A stretch of 64,000 bases of DNA from NCBI GenBank assembly GCA_017398355.1, contig JAFQGD010000025.1, positions 1 through 64,000 of the forward strand, given 5' to 3'. A model generated the notes under the pieces. That model did not search any database. It worked only from the letters and a program-made list of their open reading frames with translations, and was not told where the DNA came from. Shown here in pieces: positions 41,075 through 58,663 of this stretch. The translations under genes and the position numbers were made by a program. The first letter of the stretch is position 1, and each line of letters opens with the position of its first letter. Origin of the DNA: Akkermansia sp. (GTDB lineage: Bacteria; Verrucomicrobiota; Verrucomicrobiia; Verrucomicrobiales; Akkermansiaceae).

Positions 41075-42379
41075 ATGTCCGAATCGATGAAAAGTTATTG
41101 GTGGAGTCATCCGTGTGAGGTTGGAATCTTCAACTTTGGGGATTTGATAGGTCCTCTGTTGTTGAATGCCTACGGGCTTGTAGATTATATAGAAACAGCC
41201 TCCCGTGTGGATGATGCTGATGTGTTATTTGCCGGCTCTCTTCTGCAAAGCTTGTCCCCGGAGAAGCATACTACGATTATCGGAAGCGGTATGCTGACGG
41301 ATCAGCGCCTGCATTTCCCCCACGCTAAGATTTTGGCATTGCGGGGGCAATTAACAAAAGAAAGATTGTCTGTGCAAGACGATATCCCGTTGGGCGACCC
41401 GGGGTTGCTCATATCACGAATCTTGCCTATCGAAGTCACAAAGGAGGAGGATAAGCCCATAGGCATTGTGCCGCATTGGAAGCACTATGCATCCCCTAGG
41501 TTGGATTCATACAGGTGCGACCCCCGTTACAAAATCATCAATCCTCGTTGTGAGCCGCAATGCGTAGCGCAAGAGATATGCTCATGTTCCGTCATTATTG
41601 CGTCTTCTCTGCATGCTCTCATCGTAGCAGATGCCTACGGCATCCCCAATGTGCGATTGGATTTTGATGATGAGAGTGTCGATGTCCGCGATTTTAAATG
41701 TCTGGATTATTATTCAGCCATCGGGCGCTCGAAAGAAGATGCAAAGATAACGCCTGAGAATCTGATGCAAGTTGATCCTTCTACTATTAACTCTTCTTAT
41801 CAAAAAAATATCGCAAAGGTACAAGATGCTCTTCACAAAGTTTTGCTGAGCTTTGCACAGGATGTTCGCAAAAACTACGGTGAGCTGTATCAAGAACCCA
41901 ATGTATCCCTCCATACGGCTATGCGAATGGCTGATTGCGGTGATGTGCGGCGCATGAACTATATCGGCGATTTGTATTACCGTGGAGAAATTGTTTTGAA
42001 ATCTCCGGACGAAGCATTCTATTGGTACAAAACCGCTGCGGACAGGGGCTACCACTGGGGAATGTTCAATCTCGGTAAATGCTATTACGAAGGCGTGGGC
42101 GTGGATAAGAATGATGCTGAAGCTCGGCGTTGGTATAAACGCGCTGCGGATTTCGGAAACTTCTGGGCTTATGAAGAACTGGCAACCTGGTTTAATGACG
42201 CCGATAGTATGCGGTACTTATCAGATTGCTATTTTAACGGATATGCCGGGTACAGAACCATAGAAAAGGAAGAAAGTCTGCAAAAGGGCAAAGAGTGGCT
42301 TGAAAAAGCCACTGCGGCAGAACTGGTCGCCTCGAATATGCCAGAAGAAAAAACGGCGGAAGATAACTGGGGATTCTAA
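41075..42379 (+). CDS. Polysaccharide pyruvyltransferase-like protein fused to Sel1 repeats
   Basis: ATG 41075 (MSESMKSYWW) has AGGAAAG seven bases ahead. Residues 1-260 resemble polysaccharide pyruvyltransferases: NFGDLIGPLLL near the start, LFAGSLLQ, IIGSGML, LALRGQLTKERL, LGDPGLL and the helix SSLHALIVADAYGIPN that family members use for nucleotide-sugar binding. Residues about 295-400 contain Sel1-type repeats (GDLYYRGE...AFYWYKTAADRGYHWGMFNLGKCYYEG), which usually bind partner proteins. I know of no common fusion of this kind. It opens the GTPase cluster and ends 43 bases before the first GTPase. Confidence 0.8.
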   Translation: MSESMKSYWWSHPCEVGIFNFGDLIGPLLLNAYGLVDYIETASRVDDADVLFAGSLLQSLSPEKHTTIIGSGMLTDQRLHFPHAKILALRGQLTKERLSVQDDIPLGDPGLLISRILPIEVTKEEDKPIGIVPHWKHYASPRLDSYRCDPRYKIINPRCEPQCVAQEICSCSVIIASSLHALIVADAYGIPNVRLDFDDESVDVRDFKCLDYYSAIGRSKEDAKITPENLMQVDPSTINSSYQKNIAKVQDALHKVLLSFAQDVRKNYGELYQEPNVSLHTAMRMADCGDVRRMNYIGDLYYRGEIVLKSPDEAFYWYKTAADRGYHWGMFNLGKCYYEGVGVDKNDAEARRWYKRAADFGNFWAYEELATWFNDADSMRYLSDCYFNGYAGYRTIEKEESLQKGKEWLEKATAAELVASNMPEEKTAEDNWGF

Positions 42380-42422
42380 TAACTTACTAATATTCAAAAA
42401 CCTTTACCATTCCATATACTCC

Positions 42423-44732
42423 ATGACAACGTTACTCAATCAGGACATCGTGCAGTTGCGTCAGCAGAAGGCGCCGCAGCTGGAATCCATGCTGGCATCT
42501 GCCGGTGATTTGCATCAGATACTGGCACAGATCATGAGCTCACCACTGGTGCAGCGCAAACCTATAGAAGGAACTCAGTTGCTTGCCCGTCTTGCCACTC
42601 TTCAGGAACAACTGACCAATAAAGTACAACTTTTCCGCAACGGCGTTATCACCGTGTCGGTTGCAGGTGTGGAGAAATCCGGTAAGACCACACTGCTCAA
42701 AAACCTGACAGGGATAGAGAACTTGCCAACAGCAGATGAACGCTGCACTTCTGTCTCCTGCGAAATCCTGTTCGCAGACTCTCCTGCCAACGAGGGGCTC
42801 GACATCATTTATTATACCCGGGAAGAGCTACTGAGCGTGGTGCAGCGTCAGCTTACCTACTTGCAGCAGGAAAGCGACCTCTGGAATGACGGCCGGGCAC
42901 ATACATGGGCTGCCACGCCTGATTCCATCGAGATGTTCAGTTACTATCCGCTACCCGACGTAACCGATATTGCCGAAGAGAAAATGCTGCTGTATGAAGG
43001 TGCTCTTTCGCAATTGAAAGCAATTCAGGCCGGCATCAAACAATTTGCAGCCAAACTGGGAACCACCGAACGCGACACTCTGGCCAATCTCCCCATGTAC
43101 GCCAGTCACAAGACAGAAGGCAACGCTTGTGTAAGCGTCATGCAGCCCATCATCCGCAAAATCACCGTGCGCAAGCGCTTTGCCGGCGGCGCCCCCTTCC
43201 TGCGGCTGTGTGACACGCCCGGCGTGGATGACCCGAATCCCCAGGCTCTCAACCACACTTTCCAAGCCATCAAGGCTGAGACGGATTTGCTTATCATCGC
43301 CAACCGTCCCGGTAATATGCCCAGCATTACCCAGCCACTGGCCATGTTCCTCAGCAATCTCAAGAAACTGGATACCACGGCTCCGCTCCGCGACCGCTCC
43401 ATCTTCTTTGTCAACTGGCATCGAGATATCGACCCCGAGCAGAAGAATGCCAACATCCGCATTCAGAAGGTTCATGAAAAGAATGTGTTCCCGGCATCTT
43501 CCATCTACGGCCCATGCGATATCATGAACAATGAGGCCATCAACGAGTTCCTCAACCATGTGAACGGCAGACTTCGCAATGATATTCCCCGGCAGGATAA
43601 TGAACTCATCCAGAACTTCACCCGCGAATGGAAGAGCATTCAAGCCTGTGTCCGCACGCAGGTGCTCGATATGCTGCGAGACCAGGCACCGCCCATGCCG
43701 GACGAAATGCAGCGCGACCTTGACTTCAAGCTGGATGCCTGGTTTGACAAGCGATTCGACAGTTCATCATCCAACAGAAACGAAACCGAATATTTCATGG
43801 GCTGTCTCCGCACTCGCATGAATGAGAAAACCCGGGGGTGCCGCACCCACGCCACCCTGGAGAAGCTCCGCGACCGGGTCAAATCTATCCGTGACGAAAA
43901 GAGCGAACGCATCAAGAACTGGCTGAAGGAAAACGCCTCTGAGGATAAGTGCAAGATGATGATTGATGCTCACACCAGCCCGGAAGCGGAAATCCTGCCC
44001 AAGCTGGCAGAGCAGATGACCGAGCTTGTGCAGGAACTGACTGCGGTGGCAGAAGATATCGGCCCGGTCATTCAGGACGATGTGTATCAGGTCATCACTG
44101 AAGCTCTCGGGCAGGATGTGGCAGCTCAGCTGTGCCCCGGCAGTACGCCGGCGGAAAGCCTTGGTTCTCTCTGCACAAAACTGGAAGCCACCAGCCGGGA
44201 TGAGGATGTGGCATTCATCACGCGGAACCTTCGTGAATTTGCCGGCATTTCCATGCAGATGCGCTGCATCATGCGCCACGAACTGCGCCCCGCACTCAAT
44301 CTGCTCGATTCTTTCCGCTGGCATGCAGACCGCCGCCAGGAACTGGTGAAGGATGTGGCAGACATGATAGGCACCGCACCCCAGGGTGAGATGTGCAAAA
44401 AATGGCTGACGAACGCAAAGCTTTGCTCCTTAAGTGATGAAGCCAGGATTCACAGCGATTTCTACAAAAAGCTTTTCACCACCAGCATAATGGTTATCGA
44501 TGCTGTTCTGAGCTCCAATTCCAACAAGTTCGCCAAGCTCATGGAAGATTACATGGCCGATGCCAGCCAGACCCTGGCTACCCAGCGCCGCTGCGAAAAC
44601 GGCTGGCGCAAGGCTCTGCGCCCCTACGGCAATATCATCCTTGCCGCAGAATGGGCCCGCGTGGCCGGACAGGCCGCCAATGCCAAGCAATACGCCGAAC
44701 TGATAGACAATCTCGAAGATTCCCTTTCTTAA
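42423..44732 (+). CDS. Dynamin-like large GTPase A
   Basis: 769 residues from ATG 42423 (MTTLLNQDI); the frame is open upstream but overlaps the Sel1 gene. Motifs: G1 GVEKSGKT (about residues 81-88), G2 Thr in RCTSVSCEI, G3 DTPGVDDP (about 263-270), and VNWHRD as a non-canonical G4 in place of N/TKxD. The rest is mostly helical and charged, as in dynamin stalks; there is no obvious membrane segment, so it may bind membranes by a partner. The G domain is large (about 300 residues), as in bacterial dynamin-like proteins. GTPase B follows 21 bases later. Confidence 0.85.
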   Translation: MTTLLNQDIVQLRQQKAPQLESMLASAGDLHQILAQIMSSPLVQRKPIEGTQLLARLATLQEQLTNKVQLFRNGVITVSVAGVEKSGKTTLLKNLTGIENLPTADERCTSVSCEILFADSPANEGLDIIYYTREELLSVVQRQLTYLQQESDLWNDGRAHTWAATPDSIEMFSYYPLPDVTDIAEEKMLLYEGALSQLKAIQAGIKQFAAKLGTTERDTLANLPMYASHKTEGNACVSVMQPIIRKITVRKRFAGGAPFLRLCDTPGVDDPNPQALNHTFQAIKAETDLLIIANRPGNMPSITQPLAMFLSNLKKLDTTAPLRDRSIFFVNWHRDIDPEQKNANIRIQKVHEKNVFPASSIYGPCDIMNNEAINEFLNHVNGRLRNDIPRQDNELIQNFTREWKSIQACVRTQVLDMLRDQAPPMPDEMQRDLDFKLDAWFDKRFDSSSSNRNETEYFMGCLRTRMNEKTRGCRTHATLEKLRDRVKSIRDEKSERIKNWLKENASEDKCKMMIDAHTSPEAEILPKLAEQMTELVQELTAVAEDIGPVIQDDVYQVITEALGQDVAAQLCPGSTPAESLGSLCTKLEATSRDEDVAFITRNLREFAGISMQMRCIMRHELRPALNLLDSFRWHADRRQELVKDVADMIGTAPQGEMCKKWLTNAKLCSLSDEARIHSDFYKKLFTTSIMVIDAVLSSNSNKFAKLMEDYMADASQTLATQRRCENGWRKALRPYGNIILAAEWARVAGQAANAKQYAELIDNLEDSLS

Positions 44733-44753
44733 ACTTTCCAACCACGCAACACC

Positions 44754-46535
44754 ATGAATATACAAGACATACTCCAATCCGCCCTCTCTCTCTCCGAGAA
44801 ATACAAGACCTCCACGCAGACCGAACGGCTCCGCTCACTAGCCGAAGCCATTAAGCAGGATAAGCTCAAAGTCGTGGTACTCGGCGATTTCAAAGCCGGC
44901 AAGTCCACGCTGCTCAACCGCCTGTTCATCCGCAAGGACATGCTTCCGACCGACCATCTGGAAGCCACCGCAGTGCCGACTCACCTCAGCAACGGCTCCA
45001 TGGGAATGAACACATGGATGCGCAACCCCGATGGCGAAGATGTGCTGGTAACTGAGCGCCGGACATTCACCGACGCTGATGTTGCCGCCACCGTCACCGC
45101 TGCCACAGAAGAAGAACGCGCCAGCAAGGCTCAGCGGTACAGCCGGGTCAGTATCACCATGCCCGGTATTCTGCCGGAAAACATCATTCTGGTCGATACC
45201 CCCGGGCTCAATACCCCCAACACCGCCATTTACTGCGGCACGCTGGCAGAGGCGCGCACCGCAGATGCCATCCTGTATGTGGTACGTGCCAAGCAGCTCA
45301 GCTCCAGAGAACAGGCACTCATCACCGATTTAGCAGGTGGCCAGCAACTCAAAGTGCCTGTACATATTATCCTGACTCATGATTCAGCCGACAATATTGC
45401 CCAGTCTCAGTTGCAGAATATCTGCCAGGCCATTCAGGCACAGCTCAAGCTCTGCAAGGTGAATTGCGGTGTTTCCGTATTCTCGCTGGACGGTCATTCT
45501 GCATCCACAAGCTCTGTTGCAGAACGCATCAACACCTCATTTGATGATGGGTTCGGTTTTGGAGAAGTTCCCGCAGCTGCTCCGGTTGAAGCAACAGCCG
45601 AAACTGGTGATATCGAAAGCGAACTGCTCGCTTTCTTCAATGGTGAAGTGCGCCGCGGTCGCGCTGCTCGCATTGCCCGCGAACTTACTCCCCTGCTGGC
45701 TTCCCTGAAGGCTGCCGTGCAGGCACGCCTGACCATGGCCGAGGCCAATGAAGCGGAGATTAAAAAAATTGAGGAAAAGAAAGCGGAAATTCAGCAGGAA
45801 TATCTCCGCGTGGTCAAGTCTCTGCTGATGGATGTTCGAACCGCTCAATACACATTCAGCAACAATGTTGTTTCTGATCTGGATGCACTGCGAGATAAAC
45901 ACATTGATGCACTGAACAAACTGCAAACAACAGGTGACATTCTTGCATCCATCAGCGACTGGCATCAGGACATGCCACAGGAACTCCAGCGCGTCCTGAC
46001 CACGAGCAAATTAGACCTTGAACGTGATATCATGGCTATTTGCCAGAAGCACAATCAGGCAATTAAAGATAAGCTTGCTCCGGACGAAATTGAGACTAAT
46101 ATGCCAAGCGACTGGCTGACCAAGTTTGTTAATTTCGTTCCGAACTGGGCACTGATTCTGGCAGATTACATTATTTTTGACATCATCTCACCGCTCCCCT
46201 CCCTGTTGGATGTTCCCCTGCGCATGATTGCAGACAAGGTTCCCTTCATTCGCGACCTCATGCCGGCCAACATTGCAGCAAGCCTTGCCCGGACGATGGC
46301 CGGCAACAAACTTACCGAATGCATCAAGGATATTCAGCAGCAAGTTCACACACAACTGGACGCTAAGTTCGATGAACTGAATCAGAAACTGAAAGCCCAG
46401 CTGCAGGAAGCCGACATCTTCGCGGAGCAGGATGCCGCTATTGCCGAATTCCGCAATGGTACACTGACTATCGCCCAGAAACAGCAGCTGGAAGCTGAAA
46501 TGAAACAAATTGCCCAGTGGAGTCAAAATATCTAA
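44754..46535 (+). CDS. Dynamin-like GTPase B with hydrophobic paddle
   Basis: 593 residues. G1 GDFKAGKS (about residues 44-51), G2 Thr in ATAVPTHL, G3 DTPGLN (about 148-153), and LTHDSAD as G4. Two helical regions (about 300-400 and 540-593) surround a hydrophobic part (about 459-500, containing VPNWALILADYIIFDIISPL), placed like the membrane-inserting paddle of bacterial dynamin-like proteins. Two helices rich in Glu/Lys at about 330-345 could form a coiled coil. No Shine-Dalgarno sequence is visible. The next gene starts 13 bases after the stop. Confidence 0.87.
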   Translation: MNIQDILQSALSLSEKYKTSTQTERLRSLAEAIKQDKLKVVVLGDFKAGKSTLLNRLFIRKDMLPTDHLEATAVPTHLSNGSMGMNTWMRNPDGEDVLVTERRTFTDADVAATVTAATEEERASKAQRYSRVSITMPGILPENIILVDTPGLNTPNTAIYCGTLAEARTADAILYVVRAKQLSSREQALITDLAGGQQLKVPVHIILTHDSADNIAQSQLQNICQAIQAQLKLCKVNCGVSVFSLDGHSASTSSVAERINTSFDDGFGFGEVPAAAPVEATAETGDIESELLAFFNGEVRRGRAARIARELTPLLASLKAAVQARLTMAEANEAEIKKIEEKKAEIQQEYLRVVKSLLMDVRTAQYTFSNNVVSDLDALRDKHIDALNKLQTTGDILASISDWHQDMPQELQRVLTTSKLDLERDIMAICQKHNQAIKDKLAPDEIETNMPSDWLTKFVNFVPNWALILADYIIFDIISPLPSLLDVPLRMIADKVPFIRDLMPANIAASLARTMAGNKLTECIKDIQQQVHTQLDAKFDELNQKLKAQLQEADIFAEQDAAIAEFRNGTLTIAQKQQLEAEMKQIAQWSQNI

Positions 46536-46548
46536 CTTTACCAAACTT

Positions 46549-49023
46549 ATGATGATTCAGACAAATCTTCGCAGCGAGAAGCTGGAACAATACAATTTCT
46601 TCCGTTCTCGCCTGATTTCCCTTTGCGATGAAGCCACTCCTGTTCTGGAAAAGGCTCAGCTGATTCAGAAACGTCACCTGACCTATAGCACCCCGGCTGA
46701 GAAACTGAAGGCTGACACCTACACCCTAGTACTCATCGGCGGGTTTCAAAGCGGCAAATCCACCCTGTTCAACTACCTTTGTGATGGCCGGGAGCTTTCC
46801 CCCGTTGGTCCCTGTGGCGGTGGCATCCGCACCAGCGGCTGCATGGTGACCGCCCATCCCGTCAAAGAAGGTGAATCTGAACGAGCCATAGTCACCTGGC
46901 GCTCCCCGGAGGAGCTGTTGGCTGCGTTGGGTAACCCTCTCATCAAATATTTCGAGAATCCCGTTTCCTTCTCGGCTCTGACCCCAAACGAAGTAAATCT
47001 GGACAAGGAGGAAGATCGAAATAAACTGGCACAACTGGCTAAGCAGGAACTTACTGACCCAACAGCGGATTTGAGCGATGAAAACATGGAGCTTCTCCGC
47101 TTTACGCTTGTGGTCTGTCGGTTCTACAAGCAGTTTGAGCAGCGCTGTAAAACTGGCAAGAACGAATGTATGCCAGATGAAACGGTGAAGCTCACTTCCT
47201 ATCCCCAAACGTGGGATTACAAATGGGTCAACATTCAGGAAGAAAACACATGGACAGAGCTCCCCGATTTCTCGGAAGAAGAAGTGCAATTTGTTTTCTG
47301 TGGTGGGGTGGAACTCTTCCTCGATTCACCCATTCTGCGTAATATCGGATGCAGCATCATCGACTGTCCGGGACTTTTTATCTCCAAATGGGATACGGAA
47401 ATTGCCTCCCGTTGCATCCGTGAAGCAAACGCCATTCTGTACTTGTTGAAAGGGCAGGATCAGCTCTCACAGGAGGCCATTACGGCCCTGCGGGAATGCA
47501 TCCGCTTGGGTGGCGCGCATAAAATTATTTTTGGAGCCAATTTACGTAAGTCGCCCGCAATGTGGAATCGTGTTCTGCAGATGGGCGTTCTGCCCCAGTT
47601 AAAACGGAATGGTTTCAGCAATCCTGTTGTGTACAACTTTCATGCATCCATTGCCCTGCGCATGCGTGAACTGATGTATGAAGAATACGGAATGCTCTCC
47701 CAGCCTTCCCGGTCAGCCATCGAATACGACATTGAGCTGAGCGGTATTCCTTCCAGCGTGAAAGATTATCTGCATGCGCAGCTTGATGAATTCATCCCGA
47801 TGATGACCAGTCCCGCGACCAGAAAATTGGCCAACTACGCAGACAATTACCCGGAATTGGAAAAGCTCAGCGGGGTTCCGGATTTCGTGGGTGCTGCCAG
47901 CAACCATGTGCTGGAGACCCGCGCTACCAGTGTACTGATTCATGAGGGCTCAAAACAGATTGAAGGCTCTCTGTCTCAAGCCAAAGCAGAAATGGAGCAG
48001 AAGATTCAACTTCTTCAAGCTGATTTAAATGCTGCTGAGGAATTGCTTAAAGAAGAAAAGAGTAAGCTGGAAAACTTTAGGAGTAACAAGAAACTTCATG
48101 AGGACGCTCTAACTTTACGCTTGGATAAATGTAAAGAAATTATTTACACAACATACAATCAGGAGATAACAGGGTTGATAAAAGAAAAAGTAGAAGACAT
48201 AAAAGAAATCACCAAAAAGCATATTCCTTCGTCTATCTCCGCGAAATTGGGAGATGCGTGGAACCGGTGTGCAAGTAGCATCGACAAATGGGTCGGCTCG
48301 AATTTAGCAGAATTGAAGATCGTTGATAGAAATAAACTTAAGCAAAAATACGCTGAAGCACTGGGTGGTCTCTTATCGGAGGTTTTGACTCAAGTAAAAA
48401 ATCAGATTGAAGAAAATTTCACCAAGCAGAGTGCCTATACAGAATTGAGCAAAGATTTTGAAGCTAGACGCCAAAGTCTCATGCGAGATGTTGCAGCTTT
48501 TAAACAGCTAGGCTGTCTTGCTTCTATTGAAGTAAAATTCCCTGACTCTTTCACCGATGCTGTAAAAGGCATGGCATTGCCCAAAGCAACAGAATTACTT
48601 GAGGCTGCATTTAAAGAACAGAACAAATTTTCTGAATGGATTTGGGATGTTTTGACCTTTGGGTTGAAAAGTTTGTGTGTCAGCGGTAAAACGTGGGCAG
48701 AGAAAATTGTAGATAAGTACCTTCCTGCGTTCGCTAAGATAACGAGCAATCATCTTATGACTTGCATGGAACAAGAAGAGCCCGCAGGCCCAGTAAGAGA
48801 GCTAATGAATGCAGTCAAAGCATTTAAAGAATGTTTCGAAAATGCAGAGATGCAAATTGTTGAAGCACATAACACTGCACAAAGATACGTGAATGAAGCT
48901 CAAAACAAGGTAAGTCTCGTATCCGAACTTGAGTCTACCTGCCGAACTATATCAGCCTTGCTGGAAAAACTTCGTACGCTAGAGAACGAAATCAAACAAC
49001 GTTTTCCTCAATTATCAGCTTAA
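46549..49023 (+). CDS. Dynamin-like GTPase C with altered G3 and long coiled coil
   Basis: 824 residues from ATG 46549 (or the next ATG, 46552). G1 is GGFQSGKS (about residues 64-71), and G3 reads DCPGLF (about 271-276) instead of DTPG. The G domain carries a long insert (about 120-250) before G3. Residues about 470-530 form a strong coiled coil (AKAEMEQKIQLLQADLN and similar heptads), and a hydrophobic patch lies at about 695-710 (EWIWDVLTFGLKSLCV). The first 480 residues are GC-rich; from about 47990 on the DNA is AT-rich and codon choice changes, so the C-terminal half may have another origin. Confidence 0.85.
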   Translation: MMIQTNLRSEKLEQYNFFRSRLISLCDEATPVLEKAQLIQKRHLTYSTPAEKLKADTYTLVLIGGFQSGKSTLFNYLCDGRELSPVGPCGGGIRTSGCMVTAHPVKEGESERAIVTWRSPEELLAALGNPLIKYFENPVSFSALTPNEVNLDKEEDRNKLAQLAKQELTDPTADLSDENMELLRFTLVVCRFYKQFEQRCKTGKNECMPDETVKLTSYPQTWDYKWVNIQEENTWTELPDFSEEEVQFVFCGGVELFLDSPILRNIGCSIIDCPGLFISKWDTEIASRCIREANAILYLLKGQDQLSQEAITALRECIRLGGAHKIIFGANLRKSPAMWNRVLQMGVLPQLKRNGFSNPVVYNFHASIALRMRELMYEEYGMLSQPSRSAIEYDIELSGIPSSVKDYLHAQLDEFIPMMTSPATRKLANYADNYPELEKLSGVPDFVGAASNHVLETRATSVLIHEGSKQIEGSLSQAKAEMEQKIQLLQADLNAAEELLKEEKSKLENFRSNKKLHEDALTLRLDKCKEIIYTTYNQEITGLIKEKVEDIKEITKKHIPSSISAKLGDAWNRCASSIDKWVGSNLAELKIVDRNKLKQKYAEALGGLLSEVLTQVKNQIEENFTKQSAYTELSKDFEARRQSLMRDVAAFKQLGCLASIEVKFPDSFTDAVKGMALPKATELLEAAFKEQNKFSEWIWDVLTFGLKSLCVSGKTWAEKIVDKYLPAFAKITSNHLMTCMEQEEPAGPVRELMNAVKAFKECFENAEMQIVEAHNTAQRYVNEAQNKVSLVSELESTCRTISALLEKLRTLENEIKQRFPQLSA

Positions 49024-49031
49024 AACTATGG

Positions 49032-49070
49032 CCGTTCGACGGTTTGCTCTCATCGCCGTCGAACGGTAAA
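49032..49070 (+). terminator. Hairpin between GTPase C and the LRAT gene (terminator or attenuator)
   Basis: A perfect 11-base-pair stem (ccgttcgacgg / ccgtcgaacgg) with a 13-base loop, followed by TAAAATTTC. It lies nine bases after the GTPase C stop, inside an otherwise tightly packed cluster. It could end transcription, lower downstream expression or protect the upstream message. Confidence 0.6.
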
Positions 49071-49094
49071 ATTTCTACATAGGGAATCATAAAT

Positions 49095-50141
49095 ATGTTA
49101 CTCGGACATTTTTTACATCTGATAAGCGATACGATTCCAGCTCCTATAGCACCTGAAGAATTAAAGCCGGGAAACATCGTGGTGGCGGTTGCTGATATGC
49201 AACAACTGAAAGAAACGGGGTTACCGACCGAAATTCGATTTGGAATTGTTTGTGATGACGGAGATGTGATATGCCAATTTTGTGAATCGGAGGGAGAGGT
49301 AATTCCTGAACATCCGCAATTTACCATTAAAAAACTTTCATTGGATGATTTTGCGGAAAAGAGTATGCTCGTATACGTGATTCCGTTCGAGTGTCAACTT
49401 GGTTCAGATATAGTTATTATGTCGGCAAAAATGCATATTGGATTAACCTACTACGAGTTGCGTAGTTATCCGGGAGATGATTTCGTGGCTGAATGTTTGA
49501 GTGGGCTTTCCGCTGAAGAATTGATGCAAAAAACACCCATTGCTGGTCAGCACTGGTGGACACCGCTACATATGACACTGCGTCAGGGGCTGAAGTGGCT
49601 GGGTGTCGATGTGCCAAGTGATTGGCTTCCTGAAGCTGCAGATGTACAGGTATTTGATCAGACCCATCACGGTATTGCTATAGAGGGGAATCAGGTTATA
49701 CACTTTTCGACCCGTCGCGTACCAGATGGATCGAACCGCATTAAAGCAGACTCTTTGAAAGAATTCCGCAGCATAGGGGATGACGCTTATAGCGGATCGC
49801 CTGTTAAATACAAGGAAGAAACAACCGAGCAACGTCTGTCTAGTCGCAATCGTGCGGTGTGGATATTCTGCCATTCGGGCAGATGGGAAAGGTATAACCT
49901 GATGGACAATAACTGTGAGCATTTTAGTCGCTATTGTCGCGTGGGGAAGAAAGAATCCCGCCAAGTTATTGCGGCAGTTATGGAAGCTCTGGGAGCGCTT
50001 ATTACTATTTTGCCTAGAAGTTTGCCCTTCCAGCCTCTAATCATCGCGCTGGGCCTGCTGATGAAGAATGGAGCCCGAGTGCTTGGTCGCCCGGAAGCAG
50101 CCCGCGACTCCCTTGCTGAGTCTCTGTTTATTATTGAATGA
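49095..50141 (+). CDS. LRAT-fold (NlpC/P60 superfamily) protein with a degenerate N-terminal copy
   Basis: The 348-residue protein starts after AGGGA (49081-49085). Residues about 145-285 carry the LRAT signatures: THHGIAIEGNQVIHFS (catalytic His at about 191-192) and NLMDNNCEHFSRYC with NCEHF (Cys about 273), the residues that form a thioester in LRAT/HRAS-like phospholipid acyltransferases. Residues about 22-145 look like a second, decayed copy: FGIVCDDGDVICQF lacks the His, and ELRSYPGDDFVAECLSG lacks the Cys. The last 50 residues include a hydrophobic helix (about 294-325) that may anchor it. It probably acts on lipids or thioesters at membranes near the GTPases. Confidence 0.82.
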   Translation: MLLGHFLHLISDTIPAPIAPEELKPGNIVVAVADMQQLKETGLPTEIRFGIVCDDGDVICQFCESEGEVIPEHPQFTIKKLSLDDFAEKSMLVYVIPFECQLGSDIVIMSAKMHIGLTYYELRSYPGDDFVAECLSGLSAEELMQKTPIAGQHWWTPLHMTLRQGLKWLGVDVPSDWLPEAADVQVFDQTHHGIAIEGNQVIHFSTRRVPDGSNRIKADSLKEFRSIGDDAYSGSPVKYKEETTEQRLSSRNRAVWIFCHSGRWERYNLMDNNCEHFSRYCRVGKKESRQVIAAVMEALGALITILPRSLPFQPLIIALGLLMKNGARVLGRPEAARDSLAESLFIIE

Positions 50142-50190
50142 CACTTTACACGTTTTCCCGATAAATCAAACAACATTCTGTCGCACCATC

Positions 50191-50799
50191 ATGAAAATCT
50201 GGACTTATAATACAAACGATGGATGGCAACCATCTTCACCACCTGTCGGACTGACCTCTCTCCGGCTCAATAAGACCCGGCAGAAGCGGTTTCTCATCAT
50301 CCGCAAGGAAGCTGATGGGCTATGCACACTGCAGATGCAGTTACCCGAGCAACCGGAAATGAAAATTGCAATTAGCGACCTGACAGAAAAGCAGGCCCGC
50401 AATATTGCCATTGCTTACTTGGAGCAGAAGTTCATTGATTGTTCCGATGTAGAAAAGGTGGCGTCTGCAGAACAACTGACCTCTGCTCCAGCTATGTTCC
50501 CGGAATGGTACAGAGGAAATTACAGCACAGCGCCGGACTGCATGAGCAAAGCCGCAGAATGCCTCCGCACCCGCGCCTTCAGCGCGGGGTCCGGAATGAA
50601 GCTTATCATTGCGGATGATGCTGATTTCTTGGATGAATCACGCGCTGATATCATTCTTTCTGCTTCTGATGATGATGTCAAACAAACACCTGATATCGAT
50701 GCTGAACTACGTAAAACATTCCTCATCAGAGTTGGTGTCTCCTTAGTTTCTGCATTGGCCACATATGCCTTCATCAGGCGGATGAGAAAGAAAAACTGA
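50191..50799 (+). CDS. Tail-anchored protein, unknown family
   Basis: 202 residues from ATG 50191 (MKIWTYNTNDGW), chosen because the frame upstream overlaps the LRAT gene. The body is polar and mixed alpha/beta, without a motif I know; residues about 177-195 (IRVGVSLVSALATYAFI) form one membrane helix followed by RRMRKKN, the layout of a tail-anchored inner-membrane protein with its body in the cytoplasm. The small GTPase gene starts three bases after its stop, so the two are tightly coupled. Confidence 0.7.
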   Translation: MKIWTYNTNDGWQPSSPPVGLTSLRLNKTRQKRFLIIRKEADGLCTLQMQLPEQPEMKIAISDLTEKQARNIAIAYLEQKFIDCSDVEKVASAEQLTSAPAMFPEWYRGNYSTAPDCMSKAAECLRTRAFSAGSGMKLIIADDADFLDESRADIILSASDDDVKQTPDIDAELRKTFLIRVGVSLVSALATYAFIRRMRKKN

Positions 50800-50802
50800 T
50801 AC

Positions 50803-51396
50803 ATGATAAAGGTAGCTGTAGCCGGTGATTTCCAAGATGGTAAATCCACTCTCATTAACGCTATGCGTGGTTGTAACTGTGCTGAAACAGGCTTTGGCAT
50901 CGCTACGACAAAAGAGGTCAGAGAATATCCCCTGCCTGGTACCGGAATCATCCTTATTGATACGCCGGGTTTCAATGCCGATGATGACGACAATGCGCAG
51001 GCCTGTGTGGGAATTGAACAGGCAGATGCCTGTTTCTATATGCTCAGCAACACCCAATTCACCAGACGTATGTTTCGCGGACTAAAAAATGCGCTGAAAT
51101 ACCCCGACGGTAGCTATAAACCACTTATTCCTTTCATCAATGATAGAGGTTGCAATAACAAAGGGATGGCAAAAGCCAGCATAGCATCCATGAGATTCTA
51201 TGGCCTTGAGCCCATCCTGTTCGGTGATGAAATGCCGGTTATTCATGCCGAAGCTTGGCAGAAAGGTTGCACTTGTGAGGCGGAATACGAGCTGGGCATG
51301 CGCCGCATCAAGTTTTTACTGGGGATGGAGCCTGTGCAGAGGGTTTCTCCATTGGAAAGAATTTGCATTTTGAATAAACTTGTTGAAACTCATTAA
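50803..51396 (+). CDS. Small GTPase of the cluster
   Basis: 197 residues, essentially a lone G domain: G1 GDFQDGKS (residues 8-15), G2 Thr in GIATTKEV (about 35-36), G3 DTPGFN (53-58). G4 is not canonical; INDRG (about 112-116) stands in its place. There is no stalk or membrane segment. By size and G1 it resembles YfjP/Era-type or AIG-like domains more than dynamins. Its overlap-like spacing with the tail-anchored gene suggests that protein recruits it to the membrane. Confidence 0.8.
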   Translation: MIKVAVAGDFQDGKSTLINAMRGCNCAETGFGIATTKEVREYPLPGTGIILIDTPGFNADDDDNAQACVGIEQADACFYMLSNTQFTRRMFRGLKNALKYPDGSYKPLIPFINDRGCNNKGMAKASIASMRFYGLEPILFGDEMPVIHAEAWQKGCTCEAEYELGMRRIKFLLGMEPVQRVSPLERICILNKLVETH

Positions 51397-51405
51397 GTTA
51401 AGATT

Positions 51406-51819
51406 ATGATTGAATGGTTTAGCAATGCCATTAGTTTGAATGATTTGGCAAAGGATGTTGGCAAGTTAAGAAAAGAACTTGAAAATCTCCGAGATACGCA
51501 AAGCTCTCGTCTTTATAATGTAAAGGAGCGTCTTCGTAATGCAGAAGGGCGTCTTCGTAATGCAGAGGGCTCATTGTGGGGGGAAGATGGGAGACCGGAA
51601 GAAGAGCGCGTTTGGTTTCGTTTAATGCGTTTGGAAAACAGTTTGTGGGGGAATGAAAACATTAAAATACACGCATGGGGACGCATTGAGGAACTGATGG
51701 AGAAAGTTCAAAAACTGGAGGCTGAGAATAAAGCGTTGAAGCAGCAAATGAACGAAATGCGCGATTTGAAGAAGATTCTCATAAAAGCAGTCAATAAGCA
51801 ACTGGGGAAGATATCTTAG
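51406..51819 (+). CDS. Coiled-coil protein with an internal tandem repeat
   Basis: 137 residues with two coiled-coil parts (about 13-56 and 95-125). A 21-base unit is repeated in tandem, giving RLRNAEG twice, and SLWG occurs twice around an acidic turn (about 57 and 80). The protein is highly charged and has no membrane segment. It begins nine bases after the small GTPase stop. Likely an assembly or bridging partner; no family recognised. Local DNA is AT-rich. Confidence 0.7.
   Translation: MIEWFSNAISLNDLAKDVGKLRKELENLRDTQSSRLYNVKERLRNAEGRLRNAEGSLWGEDGRPEEERVWFRLMRLENSLWGNENIKIHAWGRIEELMEKVQKLEAENKALKQQMNEMRDLKKILIKAVNKQLGKIS
51538..51579 (+). repeat. Tandem 21-base repeat inside the coiled-coil gene
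   Basis: Two adjacent copies, 51538-51558 and 51559-51579, of gcgtcttcgtaatgcag followed by aagg or aggg; they differ at a single position or two. Being in frame, copy number changes would lengthen the coil by seven residues (one heptad). Confidence 0.9.
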
Positions 51820-51833
51820 AAATTCCACTGAGT

Positions 51834-52802
51834 ATGGACATAAAACGAAAGCGCCTCTTTTGGGGCGGCGTGTTGGCAGATCCGGCTTTGGGGTCTGAGA
51901 GTGGGCATAAGATAGCCCAGCAACTGGCTGCTTTTATCAATACTCCGAACACGACGGTGTATGATAAGGCCATCGACAGCGTGTACCTGAGCACGCACAC
52001 CGGGGGCTCGCAGCTGCACCACCTCGTCGATGGGCAGCATGATATCTTCGGGGCGTTCGAGGCAGCGGCCAAGGCACTGCCGGATGACAGCACCTGGCAG
52101 GAGGTGATGGGTACAGCGCATCACTTGGGCAAAGATTTGTTTTCTGTCTCCGGATTGCCGGTTGTATCACTCCGTCCGGAGCAGTTCCAGAGCATGAGTG
52201 CTTGGCTGAGTGATCATTTGAGTATTTCCAAACGTTGGTTGGGCGATTTGTTGAAAATCAATGGACTGGAGCTATTCAGCGGGGTGCTGTCGGTGACTGC
52301 TGTGGTAGTGGGATGCCAACAGGCAGACATGCGCCAATTGGCTGAATTGAGCGCAGCGAGTGGCTTGGCTGGTATTCTTTCAGCCAATCCTATAGGCCTT
52401 TGTGCGGCTGCTATTGCCCTAGTCTTGGCGTGGAAGCACCGCCGCTCTACGGCTGATTTGGGGCGCAGCTTGCTGGTGGGTGGAGTAACAGCCGGGGCTG
52501 CGTTCGCAGCCGGTTCTACGGTGGCAGCTTTAGGAATAGGTTCCGGTCTGCTGCCTGCTGTGGCCGGAGTGCTGTTGAGCGTGGTGACGGGTTTTTATGT
52601 GCGCAATTTTTTGGTGAAAAAGCTTTATCCGCCAACGGAAACAAGCTTTGCCGGACTTTTGCCCCCACCGCAGGAGGAATTGCAGTGGGTTGTGCCCGAT
52701 ATGGATGAGGTACAAACGGACGTATGGAGGGCCATGCTGTGCTATGAATACCCCATGTCGACAACTGTGAGCATGGCTTTGCAACGTGCGTTGAAACAAT
52801 AG
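51834..52802 (+). CDS. Polytopic membrane protein, unknown family
   Basis: 322 residues. The N-terminal 170 residues are soluble and rich in His (THTGGSQLHHLVDGQHD, HHLGKDLF). Residues about 140-260 hold three or four glycine/alanine-rich hydrophobic segments (GVLSVTAVVVG, ANPIGLCAAAIALVLAW, LLVGGVTAGAAFAAGSTVAALGIGSG, AVAGVLLSVVTGFY). The C-terminal 65 residues are polar. The alanine/glycine-rich helices recall GTPase-linked membrane proteins such as DUF697, but no sequence motif confirms that. It starts 14 bases after the coiled-coil gene. Confidence 0.72.
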   Translation: MDIKRKRLFWGGVLADPALGSESGHKIAQQLAAFINTPNTTVYDKAIDSVYLSTHTGGSQLHHLVDGQHDIFGAFEAAAKALPDDSTWQEVMGTAHHLGKDLFSVSGLPVVSLRPEQFQSMSAWLSDHLSISKRWLGDLLKINGLELFSGVLSVTAVVVGCQQADMRQLAELSAASGLAGILSANPIGLCAAAIALVLAWKHRRSTADLGRSLLVGGVTAGAAFAAGSTVAALGIGSGLLPAVAGVLLSVVTGFYVRNFLVKKLYPPTETSFAGLLPPPQEELQWVVPDMDEVQTDVWRAMLCYEYPMSTTVSMALQRALKQ

Positions 52803-52809
52803 TTCTCTT

Positions 52810-53028
52810 ATGAAAACAACACAATATATAATACTGATGGCTTGCGCGTTTTCTTTGTGCGCATGTGGTGATGGGAGTGTTTCTCCGGATGAAATAGAGG
52901 ATGGAGGTCACTATGTCGGCGAAAAAAATCCGGAAACGGGAAAGGTGGAATTGCGTGAAGAGACGCTAGAGGAAGCGGCTCAGAGAGAGACCGGGAAAGT
53001 GATCGTGGACAAGCTGAATCCGCTCTAG
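52810..53028 (+). CDS. Small lipoprotein
   Basis: 72 residues. A signal peptide with lipobox ending in Cys19 (SLCACG), followed by D20-like Gly/Asp and a short acidic domain (KNPETGKVELREETLEEAA). It begins seven bases after the polytopic protein and is probably the last gene of the GTPase cluster. No family recognised. Confidence 0.72.
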   Translation: MKTTQYIILMACAFSLCACGDGSVSPDEIEDGGHYVGEKNPETGKVELREETLEEAAQRETGKVIVDKLNPL

Positions 53029-53069: not shown

Positions 53070-53103
53070 AAAAGCGCCGGCGGAGCGGAAGTCGCTCCGC
53101 CGG
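53070..53103 (-). terminator. Terminator of the DUF1232 gene
   Basis: On the minus strand an 11-base-pair perfect stem (ccggcggagcg / cgctccgccgg) with a five-base loop is followed by CGCTTTTTT. It lies 53 bases after the DUF1232 gene. The stem may also end the GTPase cluster on the plus strand, though without a T run. Confidence 0.82.
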
Positions 53104-53155: not shown

Positions 53156-54043
53156 TCACACATCAATCGCTTCGTCTTTTTGCTCTTGGGTGATGGAGGT
53201 GAGCTCATCGTTGAGCTCTTGTTGCATATCCGCTGGTATTTCCTCTTTCTTTTGCAGGAAGAAGGGAGTGATGGCTGCGAGGGCCATGGAGATGATACCC
53301 ATGTCATCCAGCCAGCCGATGACGGGGATGATATCCGGGATACAATCCAAGGGGCTGATGGTGTAGAGCAGCACGGCTGCGAGGATGGCGATGTTGCGAG
53401 GGGTGAGGAGGGTATCAGCCTTGCCGTGGCGCAGCATGTTGTAGATGAGGTTGACGCGCTTGAAGGCGGGGGATTTTTTGCCGGCTGTGCGCAGCCACTT
53501 TTCAGCAGTGGCTAAGATGACTTTGCGGTTTTCGGGGTCTTTCATGCGCTGCACCCATTCGGATTGTTCGAAGTCAGCCAGCGTTTTATATATTTTATCT
53601 TTGAAAGAGGCGGGGGCAGGGCTCTGGGCTGCTTCTGTAGCCGCATCTTGTTCGGTATCTTGAGGTTCAGTAGTGGCAGGGGGGCTGCTGGGCTCATCTT
53701 CTTGCGCGGAGGCCGCGGGCGATTGGAGGGATTGCAGGATGATGGGGCGCAGGTCCTCTGTGGCGAGTTTTTTGTTGTCCACCCAAGCATCGATGATGAT
53801 GGTGAGGATTTCTTCCAGGCGGGAGGCGGTGATGGTGGCTTGGATGTAGAGCTCGGAGCCGGGCTCTCCCACGGAAATGTGCCAGAGCTTGCGGTTTGCA
53901 GAGGCGGGGGCAAGCGCCAGGGGACAGCCGATTTTGCTTTGAGCAATGGAGACGGCTTTGTTGAGGGCTGCGCGGCCCACCATGGTATCGGAGAGCAGGT
54001 TGATAGCTACGTGTTGGGTTTTATGTAAGATGGATTTAAGCAT
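53156..54043 (-). CDS. DUF1232 (YkvA-like) membrane protein
   Basis: 295 residues. The C-terminal part (about 210-270) has YTISPLDCIPDIIPVIGWLDDMGII, the pattern Y-x-x-S-P-x-D-x-I-P-D-x-I-P-x-x-G-x-x-D-D of DUF1232, with two membrane helices. A Pro/Ala/Glu-rich linker (about 110-150) separates it from an N-terminal domain of unknown type. The family's function is not settled. It faces the GTPase cluster tail to tail. Confidence 0.85.
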   Translation of the reverse strand: MLKSILHKTQHVAINLLSDTMVGRAALNKAVSIAQSKIGCPLALAPASANRKLWHISVGEPGSELYIQATITASRLEEILTIIIDAWVDNKKLATEDLRPIILQSLQSPAASAQEDEPSSPPATTEPQDTEQDAATEAAQSPAPASFKDKIYKTLADFEQSEWVQRMKDPENRKVILATAEKWLRTAGKKSPAFKRVNLIYNMLRHGKADTLLTPRNIAILAAVLLYTISPLDCIPDIIPVIGWLDDMGIISMALAAITPFFLQKKEEIPADMQQELNDELTSITQEQKDEAIDV

Positions 54044-55322: not shown

Positions 55323-57017
55323 ATGGATATCGTATCGTTACCACCGGGTACCTTTATAGGAAGTTACAAGATACTCAAGGCTCAAGGGCAGGGGGGATTT
55401 GGTATTACCTATATTGCATGGGATAAGGGATTGGAGCGAAATGTGGTACTCAAGGAGTGTTTCCCGTCCACCATTTGTCGCCGTACGGATACGGGAGGCT
55501 TGGCACCGCTGCAGCCTCATTTGGAGGATATGTATGTAGCGGCTATGGCGGATATGCGCCGGGAGGCGATGATGCTGGCCAAGCTGAGCCACCCCGGGAT
55601 AGTGCCGGTGTATGATGTATTCGAATCGCAGGGCAGTTTATTTTATGTGATGCCGTGGCTGGATGGCGGGAGCTTGAAGGAGCGGATGGAGGAAGCGCAG
55701 GAAACGGAGCAGCCCATTGCCCCGGAGCAGGCCTTGGAGTGGCTGGTACTTGTGCTGGATGCGCTGGTGTATCTGCACAATCAAGGGGTGATTCACCGCG
55801 ATTTGAAGCCGGATAACATTGTATTCAATGCGGAGAATAAACCCGTACTCATTGATTTTGGATCTGCCCGCAAGTATGTGGAGCATTCGGTGTCTCAGGG
55901 TGAGTTTTCGTGGCGTTATGCTGCGCCGGAACACATCACCGGCAAGGGGAACTTGGGGCCGTGGACGGATATGTATTCCCTCGCTACAACGTGGTATGAG
56001 CTGCTGAGCGGTTGCGATGCCGAGGATACGATACACCGTTTGCAAAAGGATGAGTTGGTGCCACTGCGCAAGTTGAAGCCGGCGCGGAAACTCCCGCGCG
56101 CATTGGTGGAGTCAATTGACCGCAATATGGCATTGGAGCCGGACGACCGCTGTGAGACAGCGGAGCAGTGGCGCGATTGGCTGCTTAAGAGTGCCCAGCC
56201 ACGCGGGCTGAGGATGCGCCAGCGCTGGTTTAGCTTTCCGCGGTGGGTGTGGTTGCTGTTGTTTGGGGTAGCGGTGACGCTGGGGCGCTGCATTGGGCAG
56301 TTGCAGGTGGAGGCGAATAAATCAAAACCAGATCCAAAGCAACAATATTTTGTGAAGATGGAGGATGGCACTCTCCTGGTGCAGAGGGATGATACAAGTG
56401 CTGTAGATTTGACACCGGTGATGTACATTCCCCACGGCGGGGATGATACTACCGGTCGTGCTAGCGCACCGGAACCGGGGAGCCCGGAGTTCCTGGATAA
56501 GTTGTTTGCCGATTTTTGTACGTATCATGCAGCGGTTATTGAGGATTTTCGCAAGAAAAAAGATGAGTGGCTTCGGCAACGCAGCGAGAATGTGCAGGAG
56601 TTTGAGCGTCAGTTGACCGCCATGCAAGAGACACTCTTACCGCAAATCCGTAAGACACCGCGCCCCGCCGAGCCTATCGGTGATTTGGGTAACCCCTGGC
56701 TGCGTTTGCAATTGAAGGTAGATGCTCAGGTGGGCGCCTTGTGCAAGAAGTTTGTGGATAAAGACCGCCCCATGCTTTGGGCTATGGAGGCTGAGATAGA
56801 GCAGATGCAAGAGATGCTGAGGGAGCCTGCATCTCATTACCCGAAGGGCTCAACGGATGAATTGGCGAGGCTCCCGATGCTGACGGAGCGCTTGGAAAAA
56901 GAAATTATCGGCGATGCCAATGAGGCGGTATCGCAAAAGATGCCCTGGAGCCAAGGCAATGCAATCGTCAGCGATTGGCTCTCGCAGGGCGGGGCTGATT
57001 TGGGTACTCAGCAATAG
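55323..57017 (+). CDS. Membrane Ser/Thr protein kinase (PknB/Hanks type)
   Basis: The N-terminal kinase domain (about residues 12-285) has the Gly-rich loop GQGGFG (22-27), Lys44, HRDLKPDN (about 158-165) and DFGSA (about 180-184), the latter with the APE equivalent AAPEH. One membrane helix is at about 304-322, and the C-terminal 240 residues are outside: polar, with Glu/Lys-rich coiled helices and no PASTA repeats. The substrate is unknown. It converges with a PAS-SpoIIE phosphatase gene, so it may be in a phosphorylation circuit with it. Confidence 0.93.
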   Translation: MDIVSLPPGTFIGSYKILKAQGQGGFGITYIAWDKGLERNVVLKECFPSTICRRTDTGGLAPLQPHLEDMYVAAMADMRREAMMLAKLSHPGIVPVYDVFESQGSLFYVMPWLDGGSLKERMEEAQETEQPIAPEQALEWLVLVLDALVYLHNQGVIHRDLKPDNIVFNAENKPVLIDFGSARKYVEHSVSQGEFSWRYAAPEHITGKGNLGPWTDMYSLATTWYELLSGCDAEDTIHRLQKDELVPLRKLKPARKLPRALVESIDRNMALEPDDRCETAEQWRDWLLKSAQPRGLRMRQRWFSFPRWVWLLLFGVAVTLGRCIGQLQVEANKSKPDPKQQYFVKMEDGTLLVQRDDTSAVDLTPVMYIPHGGDDTTGRASAPEPGSPEFLDKLFADFCTYHAAVIEDFRKKKDEWLRQRSENVQEFERQLTAMQETLLPQIRKTPRPAEPIGDLGNPWLRLQLKVDAQVGALCKKFVDKDRPMLWAMEAEIEQMQEMLREPASHYPKGSTDELARLPMLTERLEKEIIGDANEAVSQKMPWSQGNAIVSDWLSQGGADLGTQQ

Positions 57018-57025
57018 GGCTGCGT

Positions 57026-58663
57026 TCAAATGCTTTCTTCGGTAAACTCTACGCCGAGGATACTGATATCATCATCTTGCTGGGGTTTGCCGGTGAATTG
57101 CTGCATGCCGGCAAGGGCGATGTCGATAGTCTCGCGGATGTTTTGGGGGGCTCGCCGACTCAGGAACTCCATGATGCGGTTGGCTCCTATTTCCTCGCGT
57201 TCGGCATTCATTGCTTCGATGAGCCCATCCGTGTAGAGCATGAGTTTGGTGCCGGGTTCCAGTATGATTTCGCTTTCGCGATACATGGCAGATTCCAGCA
57301 GACCCAGTGCGGGTGAGCGGGGGATGGGCGGCCGAATGGCGGATCCATCCGGGCTCAGGATAATGGGGGCCGGATGCCCGGCACCGGAGAGGGTGAGACG
57401 GCGTGTCTTGAGATCCAGATATACATAGCAGGCGGTGGAGAACATGGTAATGTTGGCCTGGCTAAAGATGCGGTAGAGCTGGCGGTTTAATGATGAAAGC
57501 AACAGGCCGGGCGTGTCTGCCAAGCTGGAGGCTTGCTCCATGAGCCCACGCAGCATGGAGGCGATGAGCGCGGCGCGTACGCCGTGTCCCATCACATCGC
57601 ATATCAACATGCCGATGCCGGATTCACCCACCGGGTAGACATCATAAAAATCCCCGGCAACGCCGCTGGATGGCATGTACACATGGTGGAATCTGGCAAT
57701 GCGGCGCAGCCCCTTTTCCTCCCACACGCGGTCGGCTATGCGCTGCGGTTGCAAGGCGCGCTGCACTTCGCGAGCAAGGCTGATTTCATGCTCCAGGATA
57801 CGGTTGCGCTCATCCAACTGCTGCGCCATGTTCTGGTAGCGGTGCTGGGTCTCAATCAGTTCCGTAACATCAGATGAGATACCGACAATGCCTTTGATGG
57901 AACCATCGGAAGCATACCACGGGAATTTGGAGATGCGGCTCCACGAGCGATGCCCGCCTTTCCACGTTTCCAAGTGGATGCGGTTGGTGATAGGTTTGCG
58001 GCTTTCCATGACCTCCAGCTCCTCTTGGCGTGCAACGGTGGCATCTGCAAAGAAGTTTGTATCCTTGCTGCCGATGAGGTCGGAGGGGGTGGGAACACCC
58101 ATCTTGCGGGCGGTGGCTTCATTGGCCAGCACGAAACGGGATTCCCGGTTTTTGAAGTAGATATTATCCGGCAGGTAGTTGATGAGCGTGCGGAAGAGGT
58201 CTTTTTCTTCCATGGCGTGCAGGTCTGTCATCTTGCGACGGGTGATATCGACCCACACACCTACGAGACGCAGCGGTTTTTTTTGTTCATTGCGCTCCAA
58301 CAGGCCGTTGACTCGAATCCAGCGCCAGCCGCGCGAGCGCTGGTTGAGCAGGCGCACCTCGACTCGTAGCGGGGTGGTCATGGGCCAGTTGAGGTAGCGC
58401 TGCACTTCGGAGAGGAAGAAGGCCCGGTCATCCTCATGAATGGTCATTTCCGGCTCTGTGAAGATATTGGGCGCGTGCTCGCGGATGGGCAGCCCCATCA
58501 TGCGTAGGCATTGCTCGGTGTAGTATATCTCGCCGGATTCCAAGTTCCAGCAATACACCCCTTCCTCCGCTGCGCGTAGGGCTTTGCGGACGATTTTCCA
58601 GTTGAATACACCTGGAACGGACTGGGATGCCGGATGCTGGGGCTCACCGTGGCTCATTACCAT
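57026..58663 (-). CDS. PAS-domain SpoIIE/PP2C-type protein phosphatase
   Basis: 545 residues. Two PAS domains (about 25-140 and 155-275; both end in GVWVDITRRK / GIVGISSDVTE, the PAC pattern) are followed by a short coiled linker (LDERNRILEHEISLAREVQRAL) and a SpoIIE/PP2C domain (about 325-540) with GVAGDFYDV, ICDVMGHGVRAAL, GAGHPAP and YTDGLIEA, which carry the metal ligands (Asp). It removes phosphate from Ser/Thr, for example of an anti-sigma-factor antagonist, in response to the PAS signal. Its 3' end faces the kinase gene eight bases away. Confidence 0.93.
   Translation of the reverse strand: MVMSHGEPQHPASQSVPGVFNWKIVRKALRAAEEGVYCWNLESGEIYYTEQCLRMMGLPIREHAPNIFTEPEMTIHEDDRAFFLSEVQRYLNWPMTTPLRVEVRLLNQRSRGWRWIRVNGLLERNEQKKPLRLVGVWVDITRRKMTDLHAMEEKDLFRTLINYLPDNIYFKNRESRFVLANEATARKMGVPTPSDLIGSKDTNFFADATVARQEELEVMESRKPITNRIHLETWKGGHRSWSRISKFPWYASDGSIKGIVGISSDVTELIETQHRYQNMAQQLDERNRILEHEISLAREVQRALQPQRIADRVWEEKGLRRIARFHHVYMPSSGVAGDFYDVYPVGESGIGMLICDVMGHGVRAALIASMLRGLMEQASSLADTPGLLLSSLNRQLYRIFSQANITMFSTACYVYLDLKTRRLTLSGAGHPAPIILSPDGSAIRPPIPRSPALGLLESAMYRESEIILEPGTKLMLYTDGLIEAMNAEREEIGANRIMEFLSRRAPQNIRETIDIALAGMQQFTGKPQQDDDISILGVEFTEESI

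Follow-up and report, generated by a model that had tools for sequence, protein, structure and literature searches.

An island of ten genes fills positions 41075–53028 of a 64 000 nt stretch of DNA from Akkermansia sp. (positions 1–64 000 of contig JAFQGD010000025.1, assembly GCA_017398355.1; the whole stretch is referred to here as the window), and most of these genes belong to a co-inherited cassette. The cassette comprises between one and four dynamin-like GTPases, a polytopic membrane protein, termed here the hallmark protein, and in most cases a lone small GTPase; in Akkermansia it also includes a tandem LRAT-fold protein and a protein with a single transmembrane (TM) segment. On balance, and with modest confidence, we read it as a modular, GTPase-driven membrane-remodelling system with a recruited lipid enzyme, probably serving a response to stress or phage. 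The membrane-remodelling element is well founded on membership of the protein families concerned. A role in conflict, whether anti-phage or anti-stress, is more likely than a housekeeping one, and phage defence is only suggested.

Layout of the island

All ten open reading frames (ORFs) lie on the plus strand, with gaps of approximately 4–72 bp from the second gene onward, in agreement with an initial annotation, made from the sequence alone, that had described ten closely spaced genes forming a single unit. In order, they encode a PS_pyruv_trans/Sel1 protein, three dynamin-like proteins (DLP1, DLP2 and DLP3), the LRAT protein, the single-TM protein, the small GTPase, a coiled-coil protein, the polytopic hallmark protein and a small lipoprotein. 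No strong plus-strand terminator was seen within the cluster; the T-run of a strong hairpin at 53077–53103 is on the minus strand, where it would terminate the convergent unit. The G+C content of the cluster (0.493) is lower than that of the flanks (0.537–0.547). All of the profile families named in the initial annotation (Dynamin_N, LRAT, MMR_HSR1, PS_pyruv_trans and Sel1) were matched, while the sixth, ninth and tenth proteins correspond to no known family in Pfam, NCBIfam or PADLOC (for the polytopic protein, none above cut-off).

As a unit, the island needs to be trimmed: genes two to ten largely recur in other genomes, but the first does not recur alongside them. The product of this gene (41075–42379, plus strand) has Pfam matches to PS_pyruv_trans (1.4e-7) and Sel1 (1.9e-19). 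It was rejected as a cassette member, as homologs were found in only four other genomes of the genus, none of them at an island locus, and the comparison with locus L102 gave Sel1-repeat matches only. It is probably outside the recurring system.

Recurrence within Akkermansia

The relatives compared are metagenome-assembled genomes of Akkermansia from ruminants and other sources, with genes called by a simple longest-ORF script, so that small genes may be missed. The hallmark gene is patchily distributed, being present in 13/76 genomes of the genus and in 5/388 sampled genomes of the phylum; homologs of DLP2 and of the LRAT protein were found in five and nine, respectively, of the 59 genomes searched, all within the genus. 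Eleven hallmark loci are intact (genomes G000, to which the window belongs, G010, G016, G018, G020, G021, G023, G035, G071, G095 and G097), and every one adjoins at least one dynamin-like GTPase gene (incomplete in G018, where the contig ends). The LRAT and single-TM proteins are both present in the same 10 of these loci and both missing from G097, and thus co-vary in 11/11. Truncated hallmark genes are found in G034 and G007, where the GTPase and LRAT genes are missing nearby, while the lipoprotein gene and the flanking DUF1232 and kinase genes are still there; these copies look like decayed alleles.

The island represents more than chance proximity, since most of its genes are found together in other genomes too. 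A fortuitous clustering of unrelated genes, to which the unrelated first gene might have pointed, is already contradicted by recurrence in independent genomes and phyla, and is very improbable. A fixed housekeeping operon is ruled out by the frequencies in the genus and in the phylum sample. The check proposed in the initial annotation, for recurrence of the gene order elsewhere, turned up a similar order in other genomes: co-occurrence in other genomes is patchy and variable, which is the opposite of both absent co-occurrence and a fixed housekeeping arrangement. Comparison with a MenA/PyrC empty site was uninformative, since beyond PyrC the neighbourhood in the relatives tested is unlike that of the window.

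Recurrence beyond the genus

When 84,980 species genomes were scanned for the hallmark alignment, 29 loci came up, among them loci of Spartobacteria, Opitutales, Lentisphaerae, Nitrospira, one planctomycete and Firmicutes. This pattern scan detects close relatives only, and the spread is therefore a lower bound. The Opitutales locus L100 reproduces the window order, DLP1-DLP2-DLP3-small GTPase-hallmark, minus the LRAT gene, and dynamin-like genes also precede the hallmark gene in L099, L102, L103 and L105. In two Paenibacillus loci, L111 and L113, three dynamin-like GTPase genes and a gene for a BrxC/D-like ATPase (1.4e-24 and 6.4e-25, respectively) adjoin the hallmark gene. In the loci seen, the LRAT protein is an Akkermansia-level addition.

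A 390 aa protein follows the hallmark gene in 13 loci, comprising all those of Firmicutes together with Nitrospira and the planctomycete; in L110 it is 184 aa long. In the Paenibacillus cassettes (L111, 7834–17873; L113, 1827–11969), which have two different gene orders, this partner is a hydrophobic-hairpin protein. Its identification as a dynamin stalk lacking the GTPase was considered on the strength of a PADLOC LeoBC match (5.7e-6), but is weak, there being no match to a solved structure and a poor profile match.

The taxonomic spread also bears on whether the cassette forms vesicles or compartments, or is directed at other bacteria or a host, in any case with no link to stress. A lipid enzyme together with dynamin-like proteins could give vesicles their shape, and the gut habitat would suit such a function. 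However, the hallmark gene is also found in environmental Firmicutes, Lentisphaerae and Nitrospira, and no secretion genes were recognised among the family-scanned neighbours, so that we regard this explanation as improbable.

The hallmark protein and the lipoprotein

The polytopic protein (51834–52802, plus strand) is the most conserved and widest-spread component of the cassette; it defines the system and is the hallmark of an undescribed family. The initial annotation had listed it correctly as polytopic, but overlooked it as the defining component. Hydropathy analysis reveals several hydrophobic segments and a hydrophobic C-terminal half, while the N-terminal domain is strongly conserved, with the motif YDKAIDSVY..GGS..HHL.DGQH..DDS..HL.KD..S..G. 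Residues invariant in the alignment are N36, N39, Y43, D48, G57-G58, H62-H63-L64, D66-G67-Q68-H69, D85, H97, D101, D138 and N143. To judge by sequence, the cluster of invariant His and Asp residues may form a metal or catalytic site. The AF2 model is all-helical, with a predicted local distance difference test (pLDDT) score of 80; against the PDB and viral models it gave no Foldseek match under 1e-3, and the best VIA Z was 5.2. Identification as a C19orf12-like protein was not supported, the Paenibacillus copy scoring 21 bits against a Pfam cut-off of 30 and the window copy giving no match.

The last gene of the island (52810–53028, plus strand) encodes a small protein with a signal peptide and an 'LCAC' lipobox, as expected of a lipoprotein. 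Copies with 45–46 % identity are present in L062 and L063, and in G034 and G007 the gene is likewise next to that of the hallmark protein.

GTPases

All four GTPases have G1 and G3 motifs, and Pfam matches to Dynamin_N together with these motifs place DLP1–3 in the dynamin superfamily by their G domains; the earlier description of three unlike dynamin-like GTPases plus a lone G domain is thus upheld. DLP1 (769 aa; 42423–44732, plus strand; Dynamin_N 3.3e-8) matches SynDLP Slr0869 by profile (1.5e-8), in the G-domain region only, and has homologs in seven relatives as well as in L099 and L100. For DLP2 (593 aa; 44754–46535, plus strand; Dynamin_N 1.6e-17) the likeness extends further: profile positions 16–370 align with residues 48–407 of Nostoc BDLP (2j68; E 7.4e-24), i.e. 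past the G domain into the stalk, and the next matches are to IniA (1.8e-18) and then to chains of Campylobacter jejuni dynamin-like proteins. Hydropathy identifies a hydrophobic, paddle-like segment in DLP2 at residues 466–485. DLP3 is the largest (823 aa; 46552–49023, plus strand; Dynamin_N 3.5e-6); its profile gives a weaker, short match to 2j68 (5.2e-7), and its homologs are found in Akkermansia and in L099, L100, L102, L103 and L105.

The lone small GTPase (50803–51396, plus strand) matches both MMR_HSR1 (2.8e-10) and Dynamin_N (3.6e-8), with homologs in L031, L099, L100, L103 and L105. This position in the cassette is variable. The window type occurs in G000 and G021, while a further type of lone GTPase is found in G016, G020 and G095. 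In five other relatives (G023, G010, G018, G035 and G071) it is replaced by a DO-GTPase2-type protein, as assigned by a PF19993 match of the L037 copy (3.5e-14) and, for the other four, by sequence similarity to that copy. The coiled-coil protein encoded next (51406–51819, plus strand) is a probable partner of the small GTPase. At the equivalent place in L031 there are two coiled-coil ORFs with a common C-terminal 'AVxxQLG' end, and in L100 a single 335 aa protein combines a small G domain with a coiled coil, as if window genes seven and eight were fused.

The LRAT protein and its single-TM partner

The fifth gene (49095–50141, plus strand) encodes a protein with a Pfam LRAT match (9.1e-16). 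The LRAT-fold assignment of the initial annotation stands, amended to two LRAT-fold domains, a degenerate one at residues ~19–139 and one of catalytic type at ~153–285, followed by a C-terminal hydrophobic region. The structural model (pLDDT 81) likewise has two LRAT-like halves; its six best Foldseek matches are all to the PLAAT family, and residues 19–139 superimpose on human PLAAT3 with a VIA Z of 14.0 and a root-mean-square deviation of 2.1 over 99 residues. The second domain keeps the His-His-Cys set (H191/H192, H203 and C274) within the motifs HHG, IHFS and NNCEHF, the Cys being present in 10/11 aligned sequences. From the motif alignment, the first domain appears to lack the catalytic residues, with R/Q/K/F, Q and G at the His, His and Cys positions. 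The protein is a candidate phospholipid deacylase/acyltransferase of the phospholipase A type, and acyl-chain chemistry would be expected from what is known of the family. Pfam, profile and structure matches together confirm that a lipid-modifying fold is grouped with membrane GTPases, as had been proposed.

The single-TM protein (50191–50799, plus strand) has one C-terminal hydrophobic segment (residues 176–195), in keeping with its earlier description as tail-anchored. A 45 % identical copy is encoded in L031, and more divergent versions are linked by profile comparison (2.5e-10, 4e-6 and 9.7e-7).

Other LRAT-related genes were seen in the genus. In G018 the hallmark gene is flanked, on the opposite strand, by a second and divergent LRAT gene in which Ser replaces the catalytic Cys (L093, 5833–6918; L036, 6473–7561). 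A stand-alone tandem-LRAT homolog adjoins a KAP-family P-loop NTPase gene in contig 72 of G021 (L040, 160–4579), with no dynamin gene in the stretch seen, and a short LRAT-like fragment is present elsewhere in the window's genome (L044, 8854–9111; G000 contig 46).

Neighbouring genes

Downstream of the island lie a convergent gene for a DUF1232 protein (53156–54043, minus strand; DUF1232 9.2e-13) and a gene for a transmembrane Ser/Thr kinase (55323–57017, plus strand; Pkinase 1.1e-36). The kinase adjoins an opposite-strand PAS-SpoIIE phosphatase gene (55323–58663 for the two), and these may be a regulatory pair. In relatives the unit often adjoins the DUF1232 and kinase genes: a kinase homolog lies near 8/13 hallmark loci and the DUF1232 gene is adjacent in 8/13, the DUF1232 domain itself being found in 38/76 genomes of the genus. 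The two are treated here as frequent associates of the cassette.

This association would fit a role in envelope-stress repair or lipid homeostasis, in which the GTPases and the LRAT protein mend or adjust the inner membrane, the kinase is the stress sensor and phage play no part. The active-site residues of the LRAT domain and the presence of IniA among the relatives of DLP2 are also in its favour; IniA has antibiotic-inducible membrane roles. Such a function would not normally be as rare in a genus, or as strongly variable, as this cassette is, and we consider the explanation possible rather than probable.

Relationship to known systems

LeoABC/LeoBC likewise consist of grouped bacterial dynamin-like GTPases. 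No island protein matches LeoA or LeoBC over its full length, the NCBIfam LeoA family scoring 19 bits against a cut-off of 325, and by profile score LeoA (4aur) is farther from DLP2 than are BDLP and IniA. To our knowledge, an LRAT enzyme, a lone small GTPase and a hallmark membrane protein are all absent from the Leo models. The C. jejuni DLP1/DLP2 pair (5owv) and Nostoc BDLP (2j68) resemble the island in having adjacent, unlike dynamin-like GTPases, and both match the DLP2 profile; compared with these, the island has at least three unlike GTPases, an accessory lipid enzyme and the hallmark protein. Human PLAAT3 and the LRAT family share with the island protein the LRAT fold, the HH..H..NCEHF active-site pattern and a hydrophobic C terminus, but the island protein is bacterial and tandem, its first domain lacks catalytic residues, and it is encoded with dynamin-like GTPases.

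The GTPase-centric DO-GTPase conflict systems (Kaur et al., 2020; PMC7159879), in the description of which LRAT is unmentioned, are similarly membrane-proximal and modular, and the five Akkermansia relatives with a DO-GTPase2-type protein provide a direct point of contact. They differ in that no window protein matches PF19993 and that dynamins and LRAT are central in the island; GAP1, the third component of those systems, had no match among the window and relative proteins scanned, which were a subset of the relative genes. Bacillus subtilis DynA, a membrane dynamin-like protein, clusters at the membrane and delays phage lysis (PMC8844932), but is a single fused protein without a cassette. No published description of the present gene set was found in the literature searched, which largely excluded subscription papers; the initial annotation had also known of no precedent with this set, and the LeoA/LeoBC matches are partial. 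The set is real and recurrent, undescribed in that literature, and best filed as a variant of the bacterial multi-dynamin systems with a new hallmark membrane family.

Possible mechanism and role in defence

In the remodelling system that we favour, the hallmark protein would be anchored in the inner membrane by its hydrophobic C-terminal half and could dock the GTPases through its conserved N-terminal domain, with the small GTPase and its coiled-coil partner acting as a switch. Membrane damage or phage attack would cause the dynamin-like proteins to assemble on the membrane in a GTP-driven manner, as is known for the family. The tandem LRAT protein may be held there by its inactive first domain, serving as a targeting or regulatory part, and by the single-TM partner. 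It might then deacylate or transacylate phospholipids locally, so that the membrane is sealed, or broken down if the damage persists; PLAAT phospholipases recruited to the surface of organelles deform them and cause leakage (PMC9338259). The flanking kinase/DUF1232 pair may regulate the machine.

A special form of this scheme is anti-phage defence proper, in which infection would be sensed by the GTPases at the membrane, and abortive membrane damage carried out by the LRAT and hallmark proteins. The patchy distribution, variable composition, swapped modules and lower G+C content are consistent with such a role, as is the tie to conflict systems through DO-GTPase2 (PMC7159879). The PADLOC LeoA/LeoBC models match DLP2, DLP3 and the lone G domain in part, the best match being 2e-12 over ~86 residues. 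The initial annotation had proposed to look for proximity to known defence genes, and such proximity is seen at individual loci. The dynamin/LRAT cassette of G035 has an AbiH abortive-infection gene (Pfam 1.6e-37; L037, 5123–6136) ~1 kb upstream, beside a partial LRAT ORF, and the two Paenibacillus cassettes stand beside the BREX-like ATPase genes. In the window itself, a gene for a helicase-like 1501 aa protein (34033–38538) matching PDC-S37, a candidate defence family in PADLOC (E 0, 1019 bits), stands 2.5 kb upstream of the island. As a general feature of the flanks it was not seen: when hallmark-locus flanks were compared with PyrC loci, Ser/Thr kinases were the only recurrent excess among the 25 most frequent PADLOC families (5/59 versus 1/47), and the kinase models concerned are generic, which counts against defence; rarer hits such as AbiH fall outside those 25 families. 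In addition, none of the known defence systems was matched over its full length, and no hallmark copies were found on phages, plasmids or viral contigs. Since the context points both ways, defence proper is rated as a possibility short of probable.

The kinase result and the lack of copies on mobile elements also weigh against the wider interpretation as a remodelling system responding to stress or phage, as do other points. Most Firmicutes copies were found with the 390 aa partner only, without a dynamin-like GTPase within 10 kb. The docking role of the hallmark protein is a guess, because no solved relative of its fold was found, and the mechanism as a whole is inferred from protein families and gene context, by analogy with DynA and the PLAATs.

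Implications

A bolder proposal, which we regard as doubtful, is that the hallmark family defines an undescribed, cross-phylum form of dynamin-driven membrane immunity. Several unlike dynamin-like GTPases and the small GTPase switch would permit a membrane executor to act, and a PLAAT-like phospholipase would be an exchangeable effector; the arrangement would be a bacterial parallel to the coupling of immune GTPases with organelle-degrading PLAATs. Although dynamin-like proteins are widespread in bacteria, what they do is largely unsettled, and few partners have been defined for multi-dynamin operons. The cassette offers a conserved, cross-phylum hallmark partner and a candidate lipid-modifying effector with intact active-site residues. 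It thereby makes testable whether bacterial dynamins and phospholipases seal or destroy membranes, as animal immune GTPases and PLAATs do.

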